Origin: Polynucleobacter sp. MWH-Berg-3C6
GTDB lineage: Bacteria; Pseudomonadota; Gammaproteobacteria; Burkholderiales; Burkholderiaceae
DNA length: 64,000 nucleotides
Direction: 5' to 3'
Assembly (NCBI RefSeq): GCF_018881855.1
Contig: NZ_JACVPN010000001.1
Span: forward strand, 1-64,000
In this document: piece by piece, positions 46,276 to 48,282 of the stretch
Layout: each line of letters begins with the position of its first letter
Numbering within the stretch: the stretch's first letter is position 1
Translations under genes and position numbers: made by a program
The notes under the pieces: model-generated
Databases searched by the model: none
Seen by the model: only the letters and a program-made list of their open reading frames with translations
Told to the model about the DNA's origin: nothing

Positions 46276-46325
46276 GTTGTTTTTCGTCGTCGTCAATGTA
46301 GTAAGTTATTTACCTAGGAGGGTAT

Positions 46326-47669
46326 ATGGAATTTGAAATGTTAGATCAAGATACAGCTGGCAAAACCATTATTAAAGTGGTTGGAGTCGGTGGAGCTGGT
46401 GGTAATGCTGTCCAGCACATGATCCGTCGCGGAGTACATGGCGTAGAGTTCATTTGCATGAACACCGATGCTGGCGCTCTACAGCGTTCTGAAGCATCTG
46501 TGAATTTGCAACTGGGCTCTAGCGGATTAGGTGCGGGCGCAAAACCAGAAATCGGCGCAGCTTCTGCTGAAGAGGCACGTGCTCGTATTGCGGATACTTT
46601 GCAAGGCGCACATATGGTCTTCATCACTGCAGGTATGGGTGGTGGTACCGGTACTGGTGCCGCCCCAATCGTTGCTCAAGTAGCAAAAGAAATGGGCATT
46701 TTGACAGTTGGTGTAATCAGTAAGCCTTTTGATTTCGAGGGCGTAAAGCGCTTGAAGGTTGCTGAGAACGGCGCTGCAGAACTCGAGTCTTATGTTGACT
46801 CATTGATTGTTGTGCTCAATGAAAAGCTCTTTGAAGTGATGGGTGAAGACGCCGAGTTTGATAAGGCCTTTGCTTGTGCTGATGATGTATTGCATAACGC
46901 AGTCTCCGGTATTGCTGAAATCATCAATGTTCAGGGTTTGATTAACGTTGACTTTGAAGACGTGAAGACTGTAATGGGCGAGCAAGGTAAAGCCATGATG
47001 GGAACAGCAACTGTTTCCGGTATGGATCGTGCTCGTTTAGCGGCTGAAGCTGCAGTTGCATCACCATTGTTAGAAGGCGTTGATTTATCTGGAGCACGTG
47101 GCGTATTGGTAAACATTACTGCTAGCCGTTCATTGAAATTATCTGAGACACGCGAAGTAATGGCTGCTATTCGTGGCTATGCTGCTGATGATGCAACTGT
47201 AATCTTCGGAACCGTGTATGACGAGAGTTTGGGTGATGCATTACGCGTAACAGTGGTTGCTACTGGCTTGAATAATCCTCAAGCTCGTAAAGCAAATCAA
47301 CCAGAAGTAGTTTGGAGACAAGCTACTGGTACAAGTGATGCAATGCCAACAATGGCCGATCTCAATACCTTTGCTCCTGCTAGCGCATCTGCTGCTATGA
47401 GCAAGGTTGGCTTGGATTCTGCTTTGAGTACTAGTGCGGGCATGGCTTTGACTGGTGTCGGTAGTGCTCCATCAGTTGCAGCTCAACCAGCAGCTAGCAG
47501 CGGTGTTGATTACAGCCAATATGATTTGCCACGGGTATTCCGTAGTTCCCGTGAGGCGACTCCCGCACCTACTTTAGGCGCAGATAGCTCTCCTCAGGCT
47601 AAATCCATGTTGGATAAAGGGGCTGATTACTATGAGATTCCAGCCTTTTTACGTAAGCAAGCAGACTAA
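46326..47669 (+). CDS. ftsZ: Cell division GTPase FtsZ
   Basis: 447 residues, longer than the E. coli 383 because of an extended Ala/Ser/Thr-rich linker (about 335-425). The tubulin signature GGGTGTG is at 105-111; N-terminus [13 protein letters not shown]; the conserved C-terminal peptide is [13 protein letters not shown], which binds FtsA and ZapD. A strong GGAGG site precedes the ATG. FtsZ polymerises into the Z ring. Its partner zapD lies at 55.2 kb. Confidence 0.98.
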
Positions 47670-47700
47670 CTAACTGCTCAATACAATAGGTAATTGCGAA

Positions 47701-47760
47701 ATGCCAGCGCGGCGCCCCTCCGGACGACGAATCCCGCGCTTGCGTTGGCATGCTTACTAA
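47701..47760 (+). CDS. Possible 19-residue arginine-rich leader ORF / GC-rich hairpin
   Basis: In the gap between ftsZ and the peroxiredoxin a 50-base block is far richer in GC than anything around it. It reads ATG to TAA as MPARRPSGRRIPRLRWHAY, six arginines in 19, using mixed Arg codons including CGG and two adjacent CGA. A TACAAT box lies at 47682-47687. The same block can fold: ATGCCAGCGC (47701-47710) against GCGTTGGCAT (47742-47751), or a nested GCGCGG/CCGCGC stem. It ends 21 bases before the peroxiredoxin ATG. It may be a translated leader, a structured RNA, or both; neither is shown. Confidence 0.4.
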   Translation: MPARRPSGRRIPRLRWHAY

Positions 47761-47781
47761 CAACTACTTATTGGAGATGTC

Positions 47782-48282
47782 ATGATTGCTGTTGGACAAA
47801 AATTACCTAACGCTACTCTTTATGAATTTTTTGACGAAGAGAGCGAAGGCTGCTCCTTAGGGCCGAATGCCTTTGAAGTTGAGAAGCTTGTAGCTGGCAA
47901 AAAGATTGTCATCTTTGCACTGCCTGGCGCATTTACGCCAACTTGCTCTGCAAAGCATGTACCTGGATATGTTGAACACTATGATGCGATCAAAGCAAAA
48001 GGTGTCGACGAGATTTGGTGTATTTCTGTGAACGATCCATTCGTGATGGGTGCTTGGGGTCGCGATCAAAAAGTGGGTAAAAAGATTCGCATGATGGGTG
48101 ATGGTAGCGCTGAGTTCACCAAAAAGATGGGTACAGAGTTAGATTTAACCGCTCGTGGTTTTGGAGTTCGCTCAGACCGTTATGCCATGATTGTTGAAGA
48201 TGGCGTAGTGAAATCTTTGGATCGCGAAGCTCCTGGTAAGTTTGAAGTAAGTGATGCGGCTTCTATTCTGAAAAAACTGTAA
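47782..48282 (+). CDS. Peroxiredoxin, Prx5/AhpE-hybrid (redoxin) type
   Basis: 166 residues. The active site PGAFTPTCSAKHVPGY contains the peroxidatic C55; CISVNDPFVMGAW follows and is typical of the Prx5 subfamily. No fused glutaredoxin domain. It reduces peroxides using a thiol donor, probably glutathione/glutaredoxin. Ribosome site TTGGAGA is present. It sits between ftsZ and lpxC, a place where it also occurs in other Burkholderiales. Confidence 0.94.
   Translation: MIAVGQKLPNATLYEFFDEESEGCSLGPNAFEVEKLVAGKKIVIFALPGAFTPTCSAKHVPGYVEHYDAIKAKGVDEIWCISVNDPFVMGAWGRDQKVGKKIRMMGDGSAEFTKKMGTELDLTARGFGVRSDRYAMIVEDGVVKSLDREAPGKFEVSDAASILKKL

Follow-up and report, generated by a model that had tools for sequence, protein, structure and literature searches.

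Between ftsZ and a peroxiredoxin gene of Polynucleobacter sp. MWH-Berg-3C6 lies a GC-rich block (47701-47752) which, judged by comparison of sequences, is a structured RNA and not a peptide gene. The loop of this RNA would probably pair with the leader of the neighbouring ftsZ, mask its ribosome site and lower the synthesis of FtsZ; the complementarity of the loop to two blocks in that leader is new here. The window, i.e. the whole stretch of 64,000 nt that was analysed, comprises positions 1 to 64,000 of contig NZ_JACVPN010000001.1 (GCF_018881855.1), from a genome of about 2 Mb. The proposed target, ftsZ, occupies 46326-47669 and, of 60 genomes of the family, 54 gave protein matches to it, and the gene downstream of the element (47782-48282) encodes a peroxiredoxin of 166 amino acids; both were taken from the open reading frame list and, like the other features described below, lie on the + strand.

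A conserved hairpin behind ftsZ

The original prediction had pointed to a GC-rich block able to fold into a long hairpin, and both descriptions hold: positions 47701-47752 contain 71% GC as compared to 35% in the remainder of the gap and 46% in the window, and the + strand of 47690-47765 folds at -27.8 kcal/mol (z -2.6, equalled by 4 of 200 shuffles). The entire ftsZ-peroxiredoxin gap on the + strand reaches z -2.97 (2 of 200 shuffles as good), and the - strand of 47690-47765 folds no better than its shuffles (z -0.5). The core hairpin (P2, 47701-47751) is formed by arms at 47701-47710 and 47742-47751 and carries in its loop the blocks CCCUCC (47716-47721) and GACGACGAA (47723-47731).

We searched the gap in 121 Polynucleobacter genomes, 112 of which gave a DNA match, and parsed 109 gaps, that is, those in which both the FtsZ end and the peroxiredoxin start were located. 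All of them contain CCUCC and, 1-8 bases further on, GACGAC (108 gaps) or GACGAU (one gap). The loop motif CCUCC-n-GACGAC is present in 118 of 118 readable genomes of the genus, three of the 121 (G028, G055, G061) being unreadable; two genomes truncated by contig ends (G042 and G100) still bear it, and FtsZ is present in seven of the nine genomes without a DNA match, all seven having the motif.

To decide between a peptide, with synonymous changes, and a stem, with compensatory ones, a comparison across Polynucleobacter had been suggested, and it speaks for the stem, which is retained via compensating changes while the loop is conserved. In the main clade (58 sequences) 5 of 13 pairs have changed on both sides, a count reached by 1 of 500 shuffles, and in the divergent clade (13 sequences) this applies to 6 of 16 pairs (3 of 500 shuffles); G-U pairs are common in the stem. 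The joint alignment of both clades (A3) was left out of these counts, since the loops are misaligned between the two. With a covarying stem and a loop found in every readable genome, the RNA element of the original prediction stands; that prediction looked to the peroxiredoxin downstream, and the best predicted partner of the loop is located upstream, in the ftsZ leader.

Model R1 matches at 47693-47757, its sole match in the window's genome, and finds a single strong copy in six of six genomes of the same genus; among 74 other genomes it yields five weak matches (E 0.004-0.09). Model R2 gives two weak matches (E about 0.003) in 200 genomes of the order and missed the window's own genome, and is therefore a poor probe. 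The exact 18-base loop was found in 92 stretches in a scan of named genomes, and the 80 matches listed belong to Polynucleobacter, to unnamed Burkholderiaceae or betaproteobacterial bins and to one planctomycete bin, where the match may be due to chance. Just upstream of the loop lies the end of ftsZ in 78 of these 80 listed matches; the two exceptions are a locus that starts only 14 bases ahead of the motif and the planctomycete bin.

Some gaps of the divergent clade (among L101-L104, L107-L110 and L112) show, by eye, a further small hairpin 3' of the main one, for example GGCA/UGCC in L102. This hairpin and an upstream GGCAU could be rivals for one strand, which makes a switch possible.

Complementarity of the loop to the ftsZ leader

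Between ftsA and ftsZ lies TTCGTCGTC, followed 25 bases later by GGAGGG, the Shine-Dalgarno sequence of ftsZ (46317-46322). The loop block GACGACGAA is complementary to UUCGUCGUC in this leader (46283-46291) and the block CCCUCC to GGAGGG, so that the two loop blocks match the two leader blocks in antiparallel order. On the + strand of the window TTCGTCGTC occurs once. The pattern TTCGTCGTC-N5-30-GGAG is found once in the whole genome and its backward-read control four times, and the looser GTCGTC-N10-30-GGAGG is found in the ftsZ leader and at two other places, one inside a coding sequence and one antisense to a coding sequence, its backward control occurring 11 times; since the control is the commoner one, what counts is the lack of any other fitting leader, and not the rarity of the pattern.

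GTCGTC followed by GGAGG is present in all 77 ftsZ leaders of the genus that were tabulated, and for 76 of them the neighbouring loop was parsed as well; in the remaining locus (L137) the ftsZ frame is interrupted by a stop, and the loop of this locus was seen in L054. The stop, which may be real or a sequencing error, falls at codon 8 of ftsZ (G017:C1:102700-105200) in a single-contig genome. Both leader blocks were also present in 61 of the 62 long-enough loci among the matches listed from named genomes, the exception being the planctomycete bin. Outside the genus, the leader GTCGTC and the loop motif were both absent from all 26 loci of the family inspected, which were drawn from 50 other-genus genomes with an FtsZ match.

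The spacing of the leader blocks amounts to 6-25 bases in 70 of the 77 leaders and to 36-38 bases in seven (L142, L143, L145, L200, L201, L203, L205), and in each of the latter a stable hairpin fills the spacer, 2 of its 10 pairs being changed on both sides. Among the 70 closer-spaced leaders, nine examples were folded, and their spacers were weakly folded or unfolded. The base preceding CCUCC in the loop and the base following GGAGG in the leader match, by eye, in only about half of the lineages.

Predicted strength and coevolution of the pairing

The window's own loop and leader are predicted to pair at -18.7 kcal/mol, whereas 500 mononucleotide shuffles of the leader average -6.5, one of them being as good as the real sequence. 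Of the 9,134 segments of 70 bases taken from the two strands of the window and scored for pairing, the five top ones, antisense to the element itself, were set aside, and the ftsZ leader ranks second among the remaining 9,129, behind a single segment antisense to an open reading frame. In 24 representatives, which we chose from the 76 loop-leader loci, the ftsZ leader is the best site of its own locus in 21; it takes rank 7 in L144, rank 2 in L189 and rank 9 in L191, and these three loci also have positive residuals in the swap test described below. With the GACGAC arm alone, the leader ranks first in 18 of the 24, an equal or better site occurring elsewhere in the locus in L146, L148, L149, L153, L189 and L191. 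Both blocks are paired in the cofolds of the 15 loop types, one cofold being considered per type. The loop has about 22 bases, and fifteen pairs within it may put it under strain.

When loops and leaders were swapped between representatives, with correction for loop and leader strength, cognate pairs were better than swapped ones at p 0.0010, 0.0099 and 0.031 (16, 10 and 6 representatives, respectively), values which are optimistic because the swapped sequences are related. The GACGAC arm alone showed no cognate advantage in this test (p 0.23), and the uncorrected comparison of own with other-type leaders over 15 loop types gave nine better, one tie and five worse. Coevolution lends at most modest support to the predicted pairing.

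Proposed action on ftsZ

In the mechanism we propose, the covarying stem would present a loop with two conserved blocks, CCUCC and GACGAC; GACGACGAA would pair with UUCGUCGUC and CCCUCC with the ftsZ Shine-Dalgarno GGAGGG. The bound loop would block ribosome loading on ftsZ and, with the ribosome unable to load, FtsZ synthesis would fall; since the loop matches the ribosome-binding region, the element would probably limit FtsZ production. We infer both the pairing in the cell and the repression; the element could act within one ftsZ-peroxiredoxin mRNA (in cis) or else in trans, either as part of a peroxiredoxin transcript or as a small RNA that is released. If true, a central division gene in a freshwater genus with small genomes would possess a built-in brake, sitting directly behind the gene under its control, and the system would exemplify pairing through two blocks, with a helper hairpin holding the target blocks close together.

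The peroxiredoxin side and the motif PBC-28-3

The original prediction knew of no family for the hairpin; a published motif, however, fits it. PBC-28-3 was reported with 21 examples and proposed to be a protein-binding leader of peroxiredoxin (Brewer et al. 2021, PMC8632094), and our element, equated with it by the text description given there, is very probably the same. Both stand upstream of an AhpC-like peroxiredoxin in the same orientation with the start codon near, and both combine a long covarying stem with a highly conserved loop containing pyrimidine stretches. The numbering of the motif suggests to us an origin in genome 28, Beta proteobacterium CB, which the same paper describes as similar to Polynucleobacter (PMC8632094). 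Whereas protein binding is proposed there, the element is here matched to the ftsZ leader, and the main text of PMC8632094, the only paper naming PBC-28-3 in the literature searched, does not mention ftsZ; in the accessible text of the literature on the motif name and on ftsZ-targeting RNAs, we found no report of an ftsZ target for it. A published orphan RNA motif gains a specific candidate target.

The published assignment to the peroxiredoxin may also be right. A search that did not presuppose the gene found it downstream of the element in seven of seven further genomes of the genus, and a loose pattern detected it in 76 of the 80 named loci among the matches listed; the 109 parsed gaps are no test of this, because the peroxiredoxin start was required for parsing. 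Sequence just past the ftsZ stop is further predicted to pair with sequence entering the peroxiredoxin Shine-Dalgarno. In this outer stem (P1), the 5' strand (47684-47696) faces the 3' strand (47761-47773), which runs into the Shine-Dalgarno GGAG (47773-47776), predicted by folding of the gap to be fully paired, with CUC (47677-47679) as the predicted partner of its GAG. Over 29 gaps the cognate strands fit far better than swapped ones (p < 5e-5). Covariation among 30 close relatives (those aligned out of 35 suitable gaps) is little or no better than in shuffles, the share paired being reached by 27 of 500 and other measures by 60 to 458. The outer stem, and with it the masking of the peroxiredoxin ribosome site, is less certain than the core hairpin, and a cis effect of the element on the peroxiredoxin is possible. 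If the outer stem is real, the transcript has to read through from ftsZ, as the 5' strand lies just after the ftsZ stop, and a co-transcript is therefore favoured.

The outer stem overlaps TACAAT (47682-47687), which is nearly invariant in alignment A4 and might be a -10 hexamer; no -35 was seen by eye and the promoter scan reported no promoter there. A promoter at this place would give a transcript without the stem hiding the peroxiredoxin ribosome site.

One intercistronic RNA on a shared mRNA might control both ftsZ and the peroxiredoxin, a tentative idea to which we attach rather low confidence. The loop would reach back about 1.4 kb and mask the ftsZ ribosome site, the outer stem would mask that of the peroxiredoxin, and a promoter at TACAAT would produce a shorter transcript with the peroxiredoxin site freed; division and peroxide defence would then be tied by RNA alone.

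It is unlikely, on present evidence, that the element is a leader of the peroxiredoxin only, as published (PMC8632094), binding a protein or gating ribosome access to this gene, and that the ftsZ match is incidental. The gene does follow the element in nearly all loci listed and the predicted outer stem covers its Shine-Dalgarno, yet such a role gives no account of an unpaired loop that fits both conserved blocks in the leader of ftsZ in every genus lineage read, and a second such target site is absent from the genome.

Other explanations

A small RNA with many targets, its CCUCC blocking Shine-Dalgarno sites in general, we hold to be improbable. CCUCC is invariant in the 109 parsed gaps, and CU-rich unpaired stretches, shared by the element, have been reported from the double-hairpin RNAs of Burkholderia cenocepacia (RF02278); GACGAC is, however, equally conserved, the two further GTCGTC-N10-30-GGAGG places lie only within or antisense to coding sequence, and no terminator was detected in the gap by a simple scan for such signals. 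Rfam gave no match at the element either, permissive thresholds yielding only scores far under the family cut-offs. RF02278 (Betaproteobacteria toxic small RNA) had itself been considered for the CCUCC block and was rejected, as its model has no match at the element; the matches listed for the window's genome include one on another contig. Of 60 genomes of the same bacterial family, 47 contain RF02278 matches above the cut-off. A near-threshold match (49.9 bits, cut-off 50) lies at G000:C25:154028-154088 of the window's genome, and in other genera of the family a single genome can have as many as 21 RF02278 matches when E values up to 10 are admitted.

Still less credible is a DNA-binding protein at inverted CGTCGTC/GGAGG sites flanking ftsZ: both loci indeed bear reverse-complementary sequence, yet the half-sites are spaced by 1-8 bases in the loop as against 6-38 in the 77 leaders, the stem often contains G-U pairs, and GGAGG, one of the two half-sites, is the Shine-Dalgarno.

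We give hardly any credence to an arginine-rich, ribosome-stalling leader peptide, rejected for want of a conserved peptide among the 109 parsed gaps: the mini-ORF of the original prediction exists (ATG at 47701 inside the stem, stop at 47758-47760, 21 bases ahead of the peroxiredoxin ATG at 47782) and an ATG is retained at its start in 80 of the gaps, yet neither peptide nor frame is conserved, the 19 residues being identical in only 22 gaps, the start replaced in 16 (11 TGC, 2 ATA and one each of CTG, GCA and TAC; 13 gaps lack the core needed for placing the frame), and the 80 ATG frames ending after 13 residues in 31 cases and finding no stop in the gap in four.

Comparison with known RNAs

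Masking of ftsZ by its downstream RNA would resemble several systems described in the accessible text of the papers cited. StfZ of E. coli is an RNA from the ftsZ region, as is the element, and lowers FtsZ when overexpressed; StfZ is antisense to ftsZ, however, whereas the element lies on the ftsZ strand (PMC9628754). DicF of E. coli (PMC5069750) and DinR of Klebsiella (PMC10907235) pair with the ribosome-binding region of ftsZ and repress it, and the same region is the predicted partner here; those are separate, trans-acting small RNAs from unrelated loci, while our element adjoins ftsZ and is known from its sequence. In Staphylococcus aureus, a C-rich block in the icaR mRNA pairs with the Shine-Dalgarno of that mRNA and blocks translation (PMC3868564). 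There, as here, a block 3' of the gene matches the gene's own Shine-Dalgarno; the icaR motif resides in a long 3' UTR, in contrast to a hairpin loop between two genes, and the element has a second pairing block in addition. The conserved Shine-Dalgarno complementarity typical of icaR, DicF and DinR is found in Polynucleobacter, with the predicted pairing being weak in 3 of the 24 representatives. By analogy with these RNAs, repression of ftsZ by masking, in trans as by DicF and DinR or in cis as by the icaR 3' UTR, would be the most likely role of the element.
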